Positions 5,601 through 11,798 of a DNA stretch of 20,008 nt are shown here, piece after piece. Numbering within the stretch: position 1 is the first letter of the stretch; every line of letters starts with the position of its first letter. Made by a program: the position numbers and the translations under genes. The notes beneath the pieces are model-generated. The model saw only the letters and a list, made by a program, of their open reading frames with translations. It was not told the DNA's origin and ran no database searches. Origin of the DNA: a virus; IMG/VR virus record IMGVR_UViG_3300044631_000168, positions 1-20,008 of that record, one strand, 5' to 3'.

Positions 5601-5954
5601 ATGAGCACCCAGTACTTCGGCACGGGATCCTTCCTTGCCAATGCGACCATCACCGCGTTCCGCGCTGTGGTCATCTCCACGAACGGTGGCGTCGGTCTGT
5701 CGGCTACGGCTGGCAGCGTTGACGGCATCGCTCAGATCGATGCGGCTTCCGGTGACTACGTTACCGTGAAGTTTCTGAACAACGGCGGCACCCAGAAGGG
5801 TACGCTCGTCGGCGGTCCGGTGACGGTGGGTGACACGATCTACGCATGTGCGTCAGGTCAGGTCGGACCTGCTGGGACCGTGACTGTCGGCAAGAGCCTC
5901 ACCAGCGCGAGCACCGATGGTTCGATCATCGAGTTCATCGCCAAGAACCTCTAA
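5601..5954 (+). CDS. Head decoration protein (DUF2190-like)
   Basis: 117 residues, starting six bases after the protease-scaffold stop. It is a small, glycine- and threonine-rich all-beta protein with the hallmarks of capsid decoration proteins of the DUF2190 kind: an early ITAFRAVVIS strand, GVGLSATAGSVDGIAQIDA, a middle GDYVTVKFL, and VTVGDTIYACASGQVGPAG towards the end. Such proteins trimerise on the outside of the expanded HK97-type capsid and stabilise it. The position between protease and capsid genes is the usual one. No signal peptide or membrane segment. The family is judged from pattern and context only. Confidence 0.75.
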   Translation: MSTQYFGTGSFLANATITAFRAVVISTNGGVGLSATAGSVDGIAQIDAASGDYVTVKFLNNGGTQKGTLVGGPVTVGDTIYACASGQVGPAGTVTVGKSLTSASTDGSIIEFIAKNL

Positions 5955-5966
5955 TAAGCACCTACC

Positions 5967-6932
5967 ATGTACACTAACGCTGCTGCCATTTTCCGTGGCG
6001 ATCTCGCTGGCGTTGTCGAGCAGGCCAAGGACTGGGAGTCCAACCTGATCGGCACGCGCGTGATGCCCATCCTAAACGTTCCTCTCCGCGCTGGTCAGTA
6101 TCCTTCGTTCAAGCTGAAGGAAGGCCAGCTCCTCAAGAGCGACGTCAAGAACCGCACGCCGTACTCGACGTACGCGCGCGGCACTCGTTCCTTCACTCAG
6201 GAAACGTATACAGCTTCTGAATACGGATATGAGGAAGCCGTAGACGATACGGTCGCGCTTGACGTAAGCCGTTTCTTCGACGCCGAGGTCGTTGCTGCCA
6301 AGCTCTGCTTGCGCAAGCTCCTCCTCGCTCATGAGCTGCGCGTTGCTGCGCAGATCTTCAACGCTTCGACGTTCACCTCCACGAACTCCGGCACCGCGTA
6401 CACGACGGGCAACCTTGCCACGTTCGACGTTGGTCTCGATGTCGAGAGCGCGATCGACCGCATCCTGGCGCTTGGCGAAAGCCGCGATAACCTCCGCATT
6501 GTCATGAGCAACCCGGTCTGGACGCGCATCAAGGCTTCGACGAAGTTCCAGAATCGTCTGCGCGGAACGGGTCTTTCGACCGATACGATTCTGAACGCTT
6601 CGCAGCAGGCCGCTGCCGAGGTCTTCGGTGTCGCTGAGGTGCTGATCGGTCGCGCCTCCTACGACAGCGCCAAGGAAGGTCTTGCCTTCTCCAGCGCGAA
6701 CGTATGGTCCAACGACTACATCTGGGTCGGTGCGGTCACCGATGCCTCCTCTGGCTACTTTGGCGGCGGCACGGGCTTCACGCTGAACTGGCAGGAGTAC
6801 GGCAGTCCGACCGGCGTGTTCACCTATCGCGACGAGGCAATTAAGAGCGATATTGTGCGTGCTTCGCACTACGTCTCCGAGAAGGTCGTGAATAGCAATG
6901 CTGCGCAGATCGTGGCGACCCAGTATAGCTAA
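5967..6932 (+). CDS. Major capsid protein, HK97 fold
   Basis: 321 residues, the usual size for a capsid protein whose scaffold is a separate or fused protein. The N-terminus (GTRVMPILNVPLRAGQYPSF), the ETYTASEYGYEEAVDDTVA segment at residues 79-97, and the VMSNPVWTRIKAS helix-strand region agree with HK97-fold subunits (extended loop, P-domain, A-domain). It forms the icosahedral shell. It follows the protease and decoration genes and is itself followed by a strong intrinsic terminator, as is common for the most highly made virion protein. The start ATG has no Shine-Dalgarno (context cacctaccATG), the same pattern as the decoration gene (aactaccATG). No missing region is apparent. Confidence 0.88.
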   Translation: MYTNAAAIFRGDLAGVVEQAKDWESNLIGTRVMPILNVPLRAGQYPSFKLKEGQLLKSDVKNRTPYSTYARGTRSFTQETYTASEYGYEEAVDDTVALDVSRFFDAEVVAAKLCLRKLLLAHELRVAAQIFNASTFTSTNSGTAYTTGNLATFDVGLDVESAIDRILALGESRDNLRIVMSNPVWTRIKASTKFQNRLRGTGLSTDTILNASQQAAAEVFGVAEVLIGRASYDSAKEGLAFSSANVWSNDYIWVGAVTDASSGYFGGGTGFTLNWQEYGSPTGVFTYRDEAIKSDIVRASHYVSEKVVNSNAAQIVATQYS

Positions 6933-6955: not shown

Positions 6956-6994
6956 TCCCCTCACCTGCGTAGCGGGTGGGGGGATTTTCTTTTT
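6956..6994 (+). terminator. Intrinsic terminator after the capsid gene
   Basis: A ten-pair stem (6956-6965 with 6975-6984: TCCCCTCACC against GGTGGGGGGA, with one G-U pair) and a nine-base loop are followed at once by TTTTCTTTTT. It is the only clear hairpin-plus-T-run that I see in the window. It lies between the capsid gene stop and the next ATG at 7013. This argues against the in-frame ATG at 6950 as the start of the next gene. Confidence 0.85.
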
Positions 6995-7012
6995 GACGGT
7001 TCGCGCTACGCA

Positions 7013-8704
7013 ATGCGCGTATCGCTTTGCGTCATCTGCGGGAACGAGGAACACCACATTGAGCGAATGCTGGACTCATTCAGTCCAGCCTTTGATGAGT
7101 TGTCGCTGGTACGAGCTATCGGCGCCCGCCAGCCTGACCGCACGCTGTCCATCGCGCGTGACTGGTGCGAGGCCAAGGACAAGACATTCCGTTTCCGCGA
7201 GCACCTGAACCAGCCTGGATCCGAACATTGGGAGCACGTCGACTCGTTCGGTGAAGCGCGCAACGAAGCCTTTCGCCAAGGCACCGGAGATTGGCTGATC
7301 TGGTGCGATTGCGACGACCTCCTCGACAACGCAGATCGGCTCAAGGAGGTTCTGGCTGGTCTGCCTGATGAGGTGTCGATGGCGCGCTTCCTTTACGACG
7401 TCCGAGGCACCAGCAAGAAGCTGTTCCGCGAGCGTGCTATCCGGCGCACGGTCTTTGAGGCTGGTCGCAAGTGGCATCACGATGTCCACGAAAACCTGCT
7501 GCTGCTCGCCGGCGACAAGCACATCGACATTGAAGATCCCGTCTGGATCCATGCGCCGTTAGAGGTCAAGCGCGAGAACCGTCACCGAAACCTGCGGATC
7601 CTGCGCAACTCGGTTCGGGATGCTGCCTCGCAGTATTTCTACATTCACCAAGAGCACTACTGCTCCGGAAACTTCAAGGCTGCGGAGGAGTTCGGCAAGC
7701 TGGCGATCTCGATGCCGAACCTGCAAGACTCGTTTAAGTACGAGGCGTTGCTAAACGTGGCGCGAGTGTGCGGCAATCATCGTGATGCGATCAACTATTG
7801 CCTCCAAGCGCATGGCGTCTTCCCGTGGTGTCGCGAGGCTTTAAACGCGCTGATCCTGCTCTACTTTGAGAAGCAAGATAGGCAGCGCGCCTACTACTGG
7901 GCGGAACGCGCGCTAGAGCGTCCAGAACCGCCATTAGAGGACCGACCGTGGACGCATGAGGCCAAGCATTACGGCTGGTACGGAATCGATCTAGCGGCAC
8001 GCGCGGCACGCTACGCAGGCCACGCCGAGCGAGCGCAGAACCTGCAAGACCATTTCCACGGCGGCAAGGAGCCGACGATCTCGCTGATCCATGCCACGCG
8101 CGGTCGATCCAGCAAAGCCGTTGCCTGCCGTGAAGCCTTCCTGCAAGCCGCTGCCAATCCGGCCAACGTCGAGCACATCTTCTGTGTGGACCTTGATGAC
8201 AGCGTCTCGATGGAGATGTCGCAGCAGTTCGTCCACGTCACCAGTAAGGAGCAGAGCTGCGTTGCAGCCTGGAACCTGGGCGCACGCAAGGCGCGCGGCG
8301 ACCTGCTGATCCAGCTTTCCGACGACTGGCTGCCGCCGCTGCATTGGGATTTGCAGCTCTTGGAACTAGTCGCGCTGCGCGATCTGAAGAAGGAGCAGCT
8401 AGCTATCGCTATTCACGACGGTCATCGCAAGGACGAGCTAATGTGCATGGCGATTATGTCGCGAGCGCGCTGGGAGGCTCAAGGTGATATGTTCTTCGCC
8501 GGCTACGAGTCGGTCTTCTCGGACAACGAGTTCAGTCATCGAGCCTGGGCCGACAACATCGTCATCGACGCACGCGACAAGGTGACTTTCGTTCACGATC
8601 ACCCGCACTTCAGCAACAGTCCGCTTGATCCGACGTATCGGCACAATAACCAAAGCGAGCGTTACAAGCGCGGCAAGGAACTGTTTGAGGCACGCAATCC
8701 ATGA
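7013..8704 (+). CDS. Two-domain glycosyltransferase with helical-repeat linker
   Basis: 563 residues in three parts. Residues 1-190 form a GT-A domain of family-2 type: MRVSLCVICGNEEHHIERML at the start (nucleotide-binding strand and helix), GEARNEAF at 80-87, and the metal-binding WCDCDD at 97-102. Residues about 200-350 are helical with TPR-like pairs (FKAAEEFGKLAI, RQRAYYWAERALE). Residues 353-563 begin a second GT-A-like domain (EPTISLIHATRGR), with DLDD at 393-396, WNLGARKARGDLLIQLSDDW at 420-439 and a His-rich end. The enzyme would transfer sugars from nucleotide-sugar donors; acceptor and sugars are unknown. The start at 7013 places the fold's first strand at the N-terminus; the ATG at 6950 would run through the terminator. 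It overlaps the methyltransferase gene by four bases. GT-A assignment is strong, TPR is moderate. Confidence 0.82.
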   Translation: MRVSLCVICGNEEHHIERMLDSFSPAFDELSLVRAIGARQPDRTLSIARDWCEAKDKTFRFREHLNQPGSEHWEHVDSFGEARNEAFRQGTGDWLIWCDCDDLLDNADRLKEVLAGLPDEVSMARFLYDVRGTSKKLFRERAIRRTVFEAGRKWHHDVHENLLLLAGDKHIDIEDPVWIHAPLEVKRENRHRNLRILRNSVRDAASQYFYIHQEHYCSGNFKAAEEFGKLAISMPNLQDSFKYEALLNVARVCGNHRDAINYCLQAHGVFPWCREALNALILLYFEKQDRQRAYYWAERALERPEPPLEDRPWTHEAKHYGWYGIDLAARAARYAGHAERAQNLQDHFHGGKEPTISLIHATRGRSSKAVACREAFLQAAANPANVEHIFCVDLDDSVSMEMSQQFVHVTSKEQSCVAAWNLGARKARGDLLIQLSDDWLPPLHWDLQLLELVALRDLKKEQLAIAIHDGHRKDELMCMAIMSRARWEAQGDMFFAGYESVFSDNEFSHRAWADNIVIDARDKVTFVHDHPHFSNSPLDPTYRHNNQSERYKRGKELFEARNP

Positions 8705-9249
8705 ACCACTTTTTCCATGAGTCGCGGTTCGGTGAAAACTGGTTCGACTACGCGAACATTTACTCGCGCTTTGTCGAGGAAGCGCCAGTCGGTGCAACCA
8801 TCGTTGAGGTCGGTTCATGGCGTGGTCGATCGATGGCGTTCCTCGGCGTCGAGGCGATCAAGAGCCAGAAACAGTTGCAGCTTTACGCGGTCGATACGTT
8901 CCGAGGCAGTATCGAGCACGCAGGCCATCCGCAACTTGCGACTGGTTCAATGGTCGGTCACTTCCTTCAGAACATTAAGCCGATCCTGCACGCGGTGCAT
9001 TGCTTGCCGCTGCCGTCGACCGAGGCATCAAAGCTGTTCGACGACAAGTCGGTGTTTGCGGTCTTCATCGACGCATCGCATCAGTACGAGGATGTCCTTT
9101 CGGACATTATCCATTGGAGCAAAAAGGTGCAGCCTGGCGGCTACTTGGCTGGTCATGACTTCGGCGGATACGATGGAGTTCGACGCGCTGTCGCTGAAAC
9201 ACTTGGCCGATACACGATTGTCGGTCAGTCTTGGATCACGCAATGCTGA
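8701..9249 (+). CDS. Class I SAM-dependent methyltransferase (Methyltransf_24-like)
   Basis: 182 residues. Motif I (VEVGSWRGRS, 35-44) binds SAM, the acidic residue after the second strand is Asp65 (YAVDTF), and FIDASHQYEDVLSDI (122-136) with GGYLAGHDF (146-154) are typical of the Methyltransf_24 / TylF-CmcI-like group, which often methylate sugar or natural-product hydroxyls. Asp124 and Asp153 could bind a metal. The start overlaps the stop of the upstream glycosyltransferase (ATGA) and the end overlaps the next glycosyltransferase, so all three are probably made together. Inferred role: O-methylation of a glycan made by its neighbours. Modification of a protein or other substrate cannot be excluded. 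No DNA-methylase target-recognition region or DPPY/NPPY motif is seen. Confidence 0.82.
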   Translation: MNHFFHESRFGENWFDYANIYSRFVEEAPVGATIVEVGSWRGRSMAFLGVEAIKSQKQLQLYAVDTFRGSIEHAGHPQLATGSMVGHFLQNIKPILHAVHCLPLPSTEASKLFDDKSVFAVFIDASHQYEDVLSDIIHWSKKVQPGGYLAGHDFGGYDGVRRAVAETLGRYTIVGQSWITQC

Positions 9250-10016
9250 CCATCTTCACAATCGTTTTGAACGGGAAACCGTTCATCGATAAGCAGTTGC
9301 CGATTTTCCAGAAGCTAACGATCCCGTGGCGCTGGCACATTGTCGAAGGCGTCTCGCGTCCGCAGGAGTGTACAAGCTGGTGCGCCGAGGTGCAGGACCG
9401 CTGGCACAAGAACTGGTTATCCATCGACGGGACAACTGAGTACTTGGACAGCATCAAGGATCCGCGCGTGCGCGTGACGTGGCGGCTCGGTCCTTGGGCT
9501 GGCAAGATCGCAATGGTCAATGCAGCCATGGAAGACGTCACCGATGGCGTCGTCATGCAGATCGACGCCGACGAGTTCTGGACTGCTGACCAGTTAGAGC
9601 GAGTCTATGAACTGTTGCAGGACAAAGAGCCTGGCGACTTCGCGCAGTTCGACTGTTTTTACTTCGTCGGGCCGAGCAAGGTCGTGACGACGCGGCAAGG
9701 CTTTGGATCAATGTCCTACGAATGGTTTCGCGCGTGGAAGATGGCGCCGGGACTCCGCTTCAACAGTCACGAACCTCCGGTTCTGAACGCTTGGGCAAGC
9801 TACGTTCCGCGCGAGACGACGCGAGCGATGGGTCTTGTCTTCGACCACTACGCCTACTTCACCGAGGAGCAGGTCCAGTTCAAGGAGCAGTTCTACCAGT
9901 ACGAAGGCTTAGTCGACGGCTGGCGTCGATTGCAGAAAAGCAAGGGCGACGTGCGGCTGTGCGACTATTTCAAGTTTCTCGACAAGCAACCTTGGGTCAT
10001 CGCTGGCGACATATGA
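9243..10016 (+). CDS. GT-A glycosyltransferase
   Basis: 257 residues from the ATG at 9243, which overlaps the methyltransferase stop (ATGCTGA). The N-terminus MLTIFTIVLNGKPFI is the first strand of a family-2-like GT-A fold, GPWAGKIAMVNAAM is the helix preceding the catalytic core, and VMQIDADEFW carries the DxD (Asp108, Asp110) that binds metal and the nucleotide-sugar. FNSHEPP at about residue 180 is a further conserved-looking motif. An in-frame ATG at 9231 adds only four residues (MDHA) and lies deeper in the upstream gene. Donor and acceptor are unknown. It ends overlapping the next gene by four bases (ATGA). Confidence 0.8.
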   Translation: MLTIFTIVLNGKPFIDKQLPIFQKLTIPWRWHIVEGVSRPQECTSWCAEVQDRWHKNWLSIDGTTEYLDSIKDPRVRVTWRLGPWAGKIAMVNAAMEDVTDGVVMQIDADEFWTADQLERVYELLQDKEPGDFAQFDCFYFVGPSKVVTTRQGFGSMSYEWFRAWKMAPGLRFNSHEPPVLNAWASYVPRETTRAMGLVFDHYAYFTEEQVQFKEQFYQYEGLVDGWRRLQKSKGDVRLCDYFKFLDKQPWVIAGDI

Positions 10017-10720
10017 AAACCGTTGTGCTGGTCTACCATGAGCGACTCGGAGACGTTCTGCGCTGCCTGGCTATCGCGCGACATCTTGCAGGTCAAGGCG
10101 TCGAGGTGCTGATTGAGTGCCTGCCGCAGTATCACTCGCTCTTTGATGTCGTCAGCTACGCAACGCCTGTTGCGCCTGGTCGAGCAGGAAAGGCCAAGAG
10201 GATCGACTTACAGATTTGGCCTGAGCGCTACGCAGACTTTCGAGCTAGCGGCAAGTCGTGGGCTGATTACGTTTACGGTCTTGTTCCTGAGTTGGCCGGC
10301 ATGGATCGTCGCATTGTCTTCGACAAGCTCGATCCGCGACCGGCGATGGACGACGCGATTATGGGGCCGCTGACGGCGATTGTCTCGCCGTTTGGCTATT
10401 CGCAGACCGTCCAGTACAACCCAGCGATGGTCTGTCAGTACGCCTTCGCGCAGTTCAAGGCACCGATGCGTATCCTTGCCGACCCTAAGCAGGTGGAAGC
10501 CTGCGTCTGGCGTGGCTGGTCTGAGTCGCTGTTCATTACCGCTCGCGACATTCCCGAGCTAATCCGTATCCTGCGTGACGCTCGCGAGGTCATGACGATC
10601 AACAGCGCTCCCGCAATCATTTGCGATGCCGTGCGCGAGCGGTACTACCATATTCCGTCTGGCACGCCGCAGGACGACACCATCACCGAAAAGTCAGTCG
10701 TTGTGACATTTGGAGCTTAG
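10013..10720 (+). CDS. Short GT9 / heptosyltransferase-like protein
   Basis: 235 residues from the ATG at 10013 (ATGA overlap with the upstream gene). The N-terminus MKTVVLVYHERLGDVLRCLA matches the GT-B Rossmann start of GT9 enzymes (the RxGDxL pattern), and the C-terminal INSAPAIICDAVRERYYHIP followed by SGTPQDD resembles the GT9 donor-site segment, where a Ser/Pro-containing loop is followed by a helix. GT9 heptosyltransferases usually have 320-350 residues, so this one is shortened in the middle and could be minimal or divergent. In bacteria they build lipopolysaccharide core; here the target is unknown. A longer in-frame start at 9722 lies wholly within the upstream gene and is unlikely. 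It ends three bases before the next ATG. Confidence 0.62.
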   Translation: MKTVVLVYHERLGDVLRCLAIARHLAGQGVEVLIECLPQYHSLFDVVSYATPVAPGRAGKAKRIDLQIWPERYADFRASGKSWADYVYGLVPELAGMDRRIVFDKLDPRPAMDDAIMGPLTAIVSPFGYSQTVQYNPAMVCQYAFAQFKAPMRILADPKQVEACVWRGWSESLFITARDIPELIRILRDAREVMTINSAPAIICDAVRERYYHIPSGTPQDDTITEKSVVVTFGA

Positions 10721-10722
10721 GT

Positions 10723-11040
10723 ATGACCGTCCGCGATTTCGATCCTGCTCTGCTGGAAGCCGACTTCAGCGCCATCCAAGACCAAGCCGGCATTACGTTC
10801 TCGATGTTCGGCGTGACCATCACGGGTATTTGGGCGAACTCGCGCAACGTCTTTCAGTCCTTCGAAGATCAGCGCCGCGATGAGGGTCGGTACACGGTGT
10901 TCTTCCTCGCCTCGCAGGTCGTCACGGCACCGCAGGTAACGACCAACGTGGTGCGCGCTGGCGTTACCTACTTTATCGAGAACCTGGAGTTCGACGCGGA
11001 AGGATCCGGCGTGCAGATGGAGGTCAAGAAGTCGATATGA
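10723..11040 (+). CDS. Putative head-tail joining / head completion protein
   Basis: 105 residues. It is preceded by GGAG at 10712-10715 with a seven-base spacer, one of only two regular gene starts in the window with a clear Shine-Dalgarno; that fits a gene restarting the morphogenesis series after the sugar cassette. The sequence is a small alpha-beta protein (DFDPALLEADFSAI, then FGVTITGIWANSR, and a beta-rich end VTYFIENLEFDAEGSGVQME). Size, start pattern and position before the neck and tail terminator genes match head completion proteins of siphoviruses. I do not recognise it by name; the assignment rests mainly on gene order. Confidence 0.55.
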   Translation: MTVRDFDPALLEADFSAIQDQAGITFSMFGVTITGIWANSRNVFQSFEDQRRDEGRYTVFFLASQVVTAPQVTTNVVRAGVTYFIENLEFDAEGSGVQMEVKKSI

Positions 11041-11798
11041 TCGTCATTGAGGCACGCACTCGCGAGTTAGAGTACAAGCTGGCGCGATTGGCTGCGGCAG
11101 CGCGTGTCGATTACGGTCTGGTAATTCGCGAGGAAGCGCGATTCGTAACGCAGCAACTGATCCAATTCACTCCGCCAAAGACGATGAGCCAAGGCAAAGG
11201 CGCTATCGCCTTTGATTTCACTCGCCTAACCAACCAGCTTGAGTACAGCTACTTCAAAGCGCGCGAGACGACGGGAGGCTTTTATAAGTCGATCGCCAAC
11301 TACATTCGCAAGCGAGAAGACACAAAACTTCAAGCGCTGTTCAACAATCGTGCGCTTAACGGATTCTACGGTCTGACGCTGCTAACCAATCCGCAGCAGA
11401 TCCTTGAACAGCACAAGAACCGACGCACGCAGTATGGTCGTATCCGCAGCGGCAGAAGGCAGTTTGCGTCGTACATGAAGGACTCCAATACCGCAATGCG
11501 CACGATTCAAGAGCGTGTTGGCTGGACTGCCTCTGGCTGGATTCCTGCGGCAAAGGTTACCGGCGCACGTTACAAGAAATTCTCGGACCGATTTGGCGGG
11601 AAGTCTGGCAGTCAGGTTTCCAACTTCGGGCGCAATCCGTTTATCCTCGCGCGTAACTTCAACGTTAAAATCCCAAAGTACCAGAACACGGTGAACGCGG
11701 TTCTGCGCAGCCGTATCGCGACAACTCAAAAGAAGTTGGAGCGTGTACTTGCTAACAAGGCCGTAAATTTGGGATTCACTCGCGTGAAGATGGGCTGA
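11037..11798 (+). CDS. Neck / minor tail protein Z-like
   Basis: 253 residues, overlapping the previous gene by four bases (ATGA). Very basic, with many Arg and Lys. The N-terminal helix ending in REEARFVTQQLIQFTPP (about residues 31-46) resembles the start of gp10/Z-type neck proteins, in which a helical segment is followed by a 'T/P-P-x-T' turn. The middle (YIRKREDTKLQALFNNRALN; RRTQYGRIRSGRRQ) and the C-terminal helices are not recognised. Between the head completion and tail terminator genes, it most likely joins head to tail. It is longer than HK97 gp10 (about 120-150), nearer to lambda Z (about 190). Family is inferred. Confidence 0.55.
   Translation: MIVIEARTRELEYKLARLAAAARVDYGLVIREEARFVTQQLIQFTPPKTMSQGKGAIAFDFTRLTNQLEYSYFKARETTGGFYKSIANYIRKREDTKLQALFNNRALNGFYGLTLLTNPQQILEQHKNRRTQYGRIRSGRRQFASYMKDSNTAMRTIQERVGWTASGWIPAAKVTGARYKKFSDRFGGKSGSQVSNFGRNPFILARNFNVKIPKYQNTVNAVLRSRIATTQKKLERVLANKAVNLGFTRVKMG

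Follow-up and report, generated by a model that had tools for sequence, protein, structure and literature searches.

Behind the major capsid gene of the window, the whole 20,008-base stretch of DNA that was analysed, lies a real, conserved and modular glycosylation locus that is linked to the capsid gene. Its constant part is a gene for a large glycosyltransferase (GT1). In the window's branch a gene for a short GT9-like protein is kept almost throughout. The methyltransferase (MT) and second glycosyltransferase (GTA2) encoded between the two are one of several exchangeable inserts. The most likely product of the enzyme set is a methylated sugar attached to a virion protein, and the locus as a whole is probably a capsid-tied virion-glycosylation locus with a virion protein as its target. 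Since the window is itself an IMG/VR virus record, the cassette was examined through its relatives.

Gene layout and the putative capsid terminator

Four overlapping open reading frames (7013-10720) occupy the space between the capsid gene and the head-tail joining gene, as a preliminary description of this DNA had claimed (Table 1). GT1 and MT overlap by ATGA, MT and GTA2 by ATGCTGA, and GTA2 and the GT9-like gene again by ATGA, with the GT9-like ATG at 10013; the head-tail gene begins 2 nt past the GT9-like stop. Because this downstream gene matches PF05354 (lambda FII) below the cut-off, the name head-tail joining comes partly from gene order. The tail terminator in the window is phrog_4204. 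Where the tail block of a cultured siphovirus is similar, the interval from capsid to head-tail joining gene holds small genes only, in line with the earlier remark that most siphoviruses have no or one small gene there. The gene that follows the head-tail joining gene (11037-11798) is much more divergent among close relatives than its neighbours; its product is 49-67% identical at the amino acid level in most of them and its synonymous sites are saturated, a pattern that looks like allele swapping.

Table 1. Features of the capsid-to-tail region in the window, with proposed roles
Feature	Coordinates	Strand	Basis
Small head protein (decoration- or scaffold-like), candidate acceptor	5601..5954	+	phrog_673 'head scaffolding protein' E 3.5e-11
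Major capsid protein, candidate acceptor	5967..6932	+	phrog_1005 E 1.4e-33
Intrinsic-terminator-like hairpin and T run in the capsid gene/GT1 gap	6956..6994	+	13-pair stem, then TTTTCTTTTT
GT1 (563 aa), proposed glycan-starting protein glycosyltransferase	7013..8704	+	PF00535; GmaR/ThuS by sequence; SunS/ThuS by fold
MT, class I SAM methyltransferase, proposed sugar O-methyltransferase	8701..9249	+	PF13578 E 9.8e-16; PF05711 TylF E 1.7e-5
GTA2, GT2-family GT-A enzyme, proposed chain-extending transferase	9243..10016	+	PF00535 E 1e-7; invariant IDADE in alignment
GT9-like short GT-B protein (235 aa), proposed further transferase	10013..10720	+	AlphaFold pLDDT 89.8; fold matches
Head-tail joining gene, downstream border	10723..11040	+	PF05354 E 0.022, below cut-off; gene order

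A hairpin followed by a T run is present in all 115 distinct gaps between capsid gene and GT1, compared with 15% of shuffles under the same simple energy criterion. Such a terminator would probably hold enzyme levels under capsid levels, the cassette being reached by read-through. The T run is followed by TTGAC in 105 of the 115 gaps (6985-7000 in the window, and in the relatives).

Conservation beside the capsid gene and exchange of the middle enzymes

Searches of IMG/VR yielded 230 stretches for GT1, 256 for a short-GT1 type and 274 for a capsid profile, and the best 80 of each were used. Among the deduplicated capsid relatives with at least 1.1 kb downstream, GT1 stands next to the capsid gene in 80 of 80, in some with an HNH-like insert between. 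The sole capsid relative with at least 300 bp downstream and without GT1 is L127, whose 736 bp are occupied by the HNH-like gene. The preliminary description had named homologues that occur only as scattered single genes as an outcome that would refute it; the neighbourhood survey found a conserved cluster instead. The locus has conserved glycosyltransferase genes linked to a virion gene, an arrangement expected of phage virion glycosylation. The HNH-endonuclease-like gene itself (~227-242 aa) sits precisely in the gap that separates GT1 from the capsid gene, in relatives scattered through the set (L013, L019, L035, L036, L059, L061, L064, L118-L120, L126 and L127); that of L013, the one checked against Pfam, scores just under the cut-off.

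A second lineage (around L177-L216, plus L225, L227, L229 and L230) keeps the order capsid-GT1-[methyltransferases]-GT2-GT9. Identity to the window is ~34-39% for the capsid protein and 31-36% for GT1 (42% in one short piece), with 54-57% for GTA2 and 32-47% for GT9, the genes lying in the same order. For all four genes dN/dS is about 0.03-0.15 (0.03-0.14 for the window compared with L002, L004, L006 and L008), like the values of capsid genes. This constraint, and a gene order kept in two deep lineages, argue that the cassette is not a product of chance. In L192, FkbM-type (PF05050) and Methyltransf_24 enzymes lie ahead of GTA2. A GTA2 relative also occurs in another group, L217-L224, and in L221 a Methyltransf_24 gene stands ahead of it, which suggests that the Methyltransf_24/GTA2 pair may travel together.

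A search of 50,697 records of deposited phage genomes found no full-length GT1 relative at the sensitivity used. Distant partial matches of the second-lineage GT1 include yolJ of phage SPbeta and Listeria-derived records, and GT1 of L112 as query returned five loci only. The metagenomic podovirus MW202743 encodes a GT2-TPR-GT4 protein one small gene downstream of its capsid gene. A scan of genome contigs with the GT1 alignment found a single contig, which belongs to a Betaproteobacteria MAG and seems to be identical to IMG/VR L005. The capsid profile had no further match in 274 genomes of Betaproteobacteria. No published description of the locus was found in the part of the literature searched. 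Other enzymes also occur in relatives. Behind GT1 in L123 (10738-13665) lie genes for a zinc dehydrogenase, an E1-dehydrogenase-like protein and a 256-aa protein without an assignment, which together may modify sugars in an unusual way. In L154 (15079-16881; relative G001) a gene next to those for a tail fibre and RCC1 repeats encodes 601 aa and includes a sulfotransferase domain.

The content of the interval between GT1 and GT9 varies widely within the window's own lineage. A Methyltransf_23 gene fills it in 40 loci (and is present in one more where GT9 was not seen), DUF5672 in 11, some of them incomplete, and the Methyltransf_24 plus GTA2 pair in nine, one of which ends before GT9. Rarer contents are Methyltransf_23 plus GTA2 (n=2), three genes (n=1) and nothing (n=2). 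Loci without GT9 carry either a small GT2 (n=6) or a short GT1 with a 214-aa protein behind it (n=19); the 214-aa protein has no Pfam match and is labelled GT-like from its sequence alone.

Comparisons of individual loci reveal how the exchange looks at the DNA level. L012 and L020 have a Methyltransf_24/GTA2 pair resembling that of the window (86-90% DNA identity), set between flanks that are 91-94% identical to those of the DUF5672-bearing L009 and L018. Against L018, L020 is 93% identical in GT1 and 94% in GT9, with unrelated enzymes between; against the window, it is 90% identical in MT and 89% in GTA2, and 76% in GT1 and 70% in GT9. A like pattern of kept flanks, with DUF5672 in one locus and Methyltransf_23 in the other, is seen for L037/L033 and L058/L061. 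As raw counts, the minimum number of type changes among GT9-bearing loci is nine on the GT1 tree and six on the capsid protein tree; for all loci the raw counts are 12 and eight. Much as in the gene swaps of bacterial surface antigens, the middle enzymes are replaced and the outer ones kept.

These exchangeable middle genes rule out a fixed four-enzyme pathway. The preliminary description had proposed a single pathway of four enzymes near the capsid gene, and part of that idea stands: the neighbourhood is conserved, the genes share constraint and GT1 resembles protein glycosyltransferases. The set itself is not fixed, its middle being swapped.

Predicted folds and activities of the four proteins

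GT1 scores 47.6 bits against PF00535 (gathering cut-off 23.3). Its predicted structure comprises a GT-A domain (~1-180), TPR-like helices (~183-348) and a second GT-A domain (~354-563), in keeping with the two-domain, tripartite glycosyltransferase first described. The model, built with a 16-sequence alignment as input, has a pLDDT of 84.6 and a pTM of 0.71, with weak stretches; the DxD-type residues D99, D101 and D102, as well as D393, D395 and D396, are invariant in an alignment of 16 sequences. By sequence profile, GmaR (4.2e-8) and ThuS 7msk (0.0022) were the only PDB matches at E<=0.01. SunS 7msn and ThuS 7msk top the fold ranking. In VIA-align comparisons, residues 1-351 match ThuS 7msk with Z 18.7 over 287 residues but an rmsd of 8.3, GT1 matches 7msp with Z 17.8 and rmsd 3.3 over 262 residues, and residues 353-563 match the fucosyltransferase WrtF with Z 18.3. 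The matches to 7msk and 7msp give the model the SunS-type combination of GT-A and helical domain, and the first part of GT1 is closest to the solved protein glycosyltransferases SunS, ThuS and GmaR. GT1 scores only 12 bits (E 0.065) against the SunS family peptide S-glycosyltransferase model TIGR04195, for which the NCBI curated cut-off is 350, and is therefore classed as SunS-like by fold and not as a member of the SunS family.

The assignments of a SAM methyltransferase and a second GT-A enzyme both hold. MT scores 59 bits against PF13578 (Methyltransf_24; gathering cut-off 26.3). PHROGs labels its family 'DNA methyltransferase', a role that was rejected, as Pfam indicates sugar or small-molecule O-methylation instead. 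GTA2 scores 32.5 bits against PF00535 (cut-off 23.3), and its acidic residues D108 and D110 are invariant among relatives; its sequence profile had one chance-level match in the PDB. The motifs singled out in the four proteins, WCDCDD, VEVGSWRGRS, IDADEFW and RLGDVLRCLA, are present and are invariant or nearly so in relatives.

The model of the GT9-like protein matches WaaC (Z 15.4), WaaF (1psw; Z 15.3), 3tov (Z 14.4) and TibC (Z 13.2), the alignments spanning 215-228 of 235 residues, and it shares an RLGD-type N-terminal motif with GT9 heptosyltransferases (WaaC, WaaF, TibC), though these are ~300-390 residues long and the GT9-like protein is roughly 70-150 residues shorter. It matched no Pfam family at E<=1 and no PDB entry by sequence profile. 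With a GT-B heptosyltransferase fold and no matching sequence profile, it is filed as GT9-like by fold alone.

Probable target of the locus, known parallels and meaning

From the genes, their predicted folds, conservation, neighbourhood and exchange we infer an acceptor, a set of sugars, an order of steps and a role. GT1 would be a soluble protein glycosyltransferase of the SunS/GmaR type, working in the cytosol. Its TPR-like middle would bind an abundant virion protein (the capsid protein, the small head protein or the major tail protein), and its first GT-A domain would attach the first sugar. With nucleotide-sugar donors, GTA2, the GT9-like enzyme and the second GT-A domain of GT1 may extend the glycan, and MT may cap one sugar with a methyl group. 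The enzymes between GT1 and GT9 would be swapped among related phages via recombination in the flanks, so that relatives would carry different glycans.

The likeness of GT1 to GmaR, a flagellin GlcNAc-transferase, and to ThuS points, at the level of sequence, to a virion protein as target. The SunS/ThuS-like fold of GT1, its place behind the capsid gene in both lineages, the similar protein of podovirus MW202743, the capsid-like constraint on all four genes and the exchange of the middle enzymes also favour this reading of the locus. Counting against such a target are the GT9 relatives WaaC and WaaF, which act on LPS, the score of GT1 under the SunS cut-off and the pTM and weak stretches of its model. 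Moreover, the conserved place beside the capsid gene is evidence of linkage, not of substrate. It is unlikely, that said, that the enzymes instead act late in infection on LPS or capsule at the surface of the host, which might for instance keep progeny from re-adsorbing to debris. LPS heptosyltransferases are among the closest relatives of the GT9 fold, and GT2 enzymes frequently act on surface polysaccharides, but none of the four proteins has a segment hydrophobic enough for a membrane anchor (maximum KD19 1.14), GT1 resembles protein glycosyltransferases and the cassette is inseparable from the capsid gene. TibC, GT9-like too, is annotated as an enterotoxigenic E. coli glycosyltransferase, and it heptosylates a protein.

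GT1 might also serve virion structure or assembly, with catalysis only incidental, as GmaR likewise moonlights as an antirepressor, with the other genes as passengers. Its constancy among variable neighbours and its TPR-like binding module would suit such a factor; the invariant DxD-type catalytic motifs of its first domain do not, and passengers would not hold dN/dS near 0.05; this reading is very improbable. Modification of phage DNA, by way of glycosylated hypermodified bases, is likewise very improbable. The PHROGs label of the MT family favours it, and DNA-acting phage glycosyltransferases are known (cited in PMC12619734), but MT matches Methyltransf_24 and the TylF sugar O-methyltransferases, and a place beside the capsid gene does not suggest a DNA role. 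The annotated proteins of a 36.7-kb relative, which cover part of its ORFs, include DNA methyltransferases and none recognised as a maker of hypermodified bases.

Glycosylation of a virion protein has parallels in several systems. Capsid glycosylation is already known for a few phages, and Freeman et al. reportedly described in 2023 virion glycosylation in the mycobacteriophages Che8, Corndog and Myrna. In these phages, phage-encoded glycosyltransferases glycosylate capsid and tail tube proteins (PMC11256854, PMC12619734, PMC12363180). The present locus resembles them in its phage-encoded glycosyltransferases, which are proposed to act on virion proteins; it differs in that the glycosyltransferase genes of the related F1 phage Maravista lie near the genome 3' end, whereas here the block sits behind the capsid gene and its enzymes are exchangeable. 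In PBCV-1, A064R unites a methyltransferase with two rhamnosyltransferases that serve the glycan of the major capsid protein, and chlorovirus glycan variants define antigenic types (PMC7019647). By description it resembles the pathway proposed here, being encoded by the virus, cytosolic and equipped with a methyltransferase besides two GT domains, but PBCV-1 is a eukaryotic giant virus, the product is an N-glycan and the methyltransferase is fused within A064R. SunS and ThuS share the GT-A plus helical domain and are the top fold match for GT1 residues 1-351; GT1 has an extra second GT-A domain and lacks a glycocin context. GmaR, the best PDB sequence match of GT1, has the same layout of an N-terminal GT followed by TPR, the latter a proposed flagellin binder (PMC9638930); its C-terminal end is an antirepressor domain, in contrast to the second GT-A domain of GT1.

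What is new here is the capsid-linked, modular and exchangeable form of the proposed virion glycosylation. In a large group of uncultured phages (230-274 candidate IMG/VR stretches per search), capsid glycosylation seems to be both obligatory and of ancient origin, with enzyme exchange at one site. Held with rather less than even confidence is the proposal of a serotype-like system, in which a fixed protein glycosyltransferase by the capsid gene and cassettes exchanged between fixed flanks would make the sugar coats of virions differ even among close relatives. The diversifying selection behind such differences might act, for instance, against host recognition, against defences that sense capsids or against the loss of particles in water. 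If true, phage particles would have surface 'serotypes', with a bearing on host contact, defence and persistence. The locus is also a rich source of enzymes with virion proteins as possible cytosolic substrates, and it suggests a testable rule by which cassette type would set glycan type.
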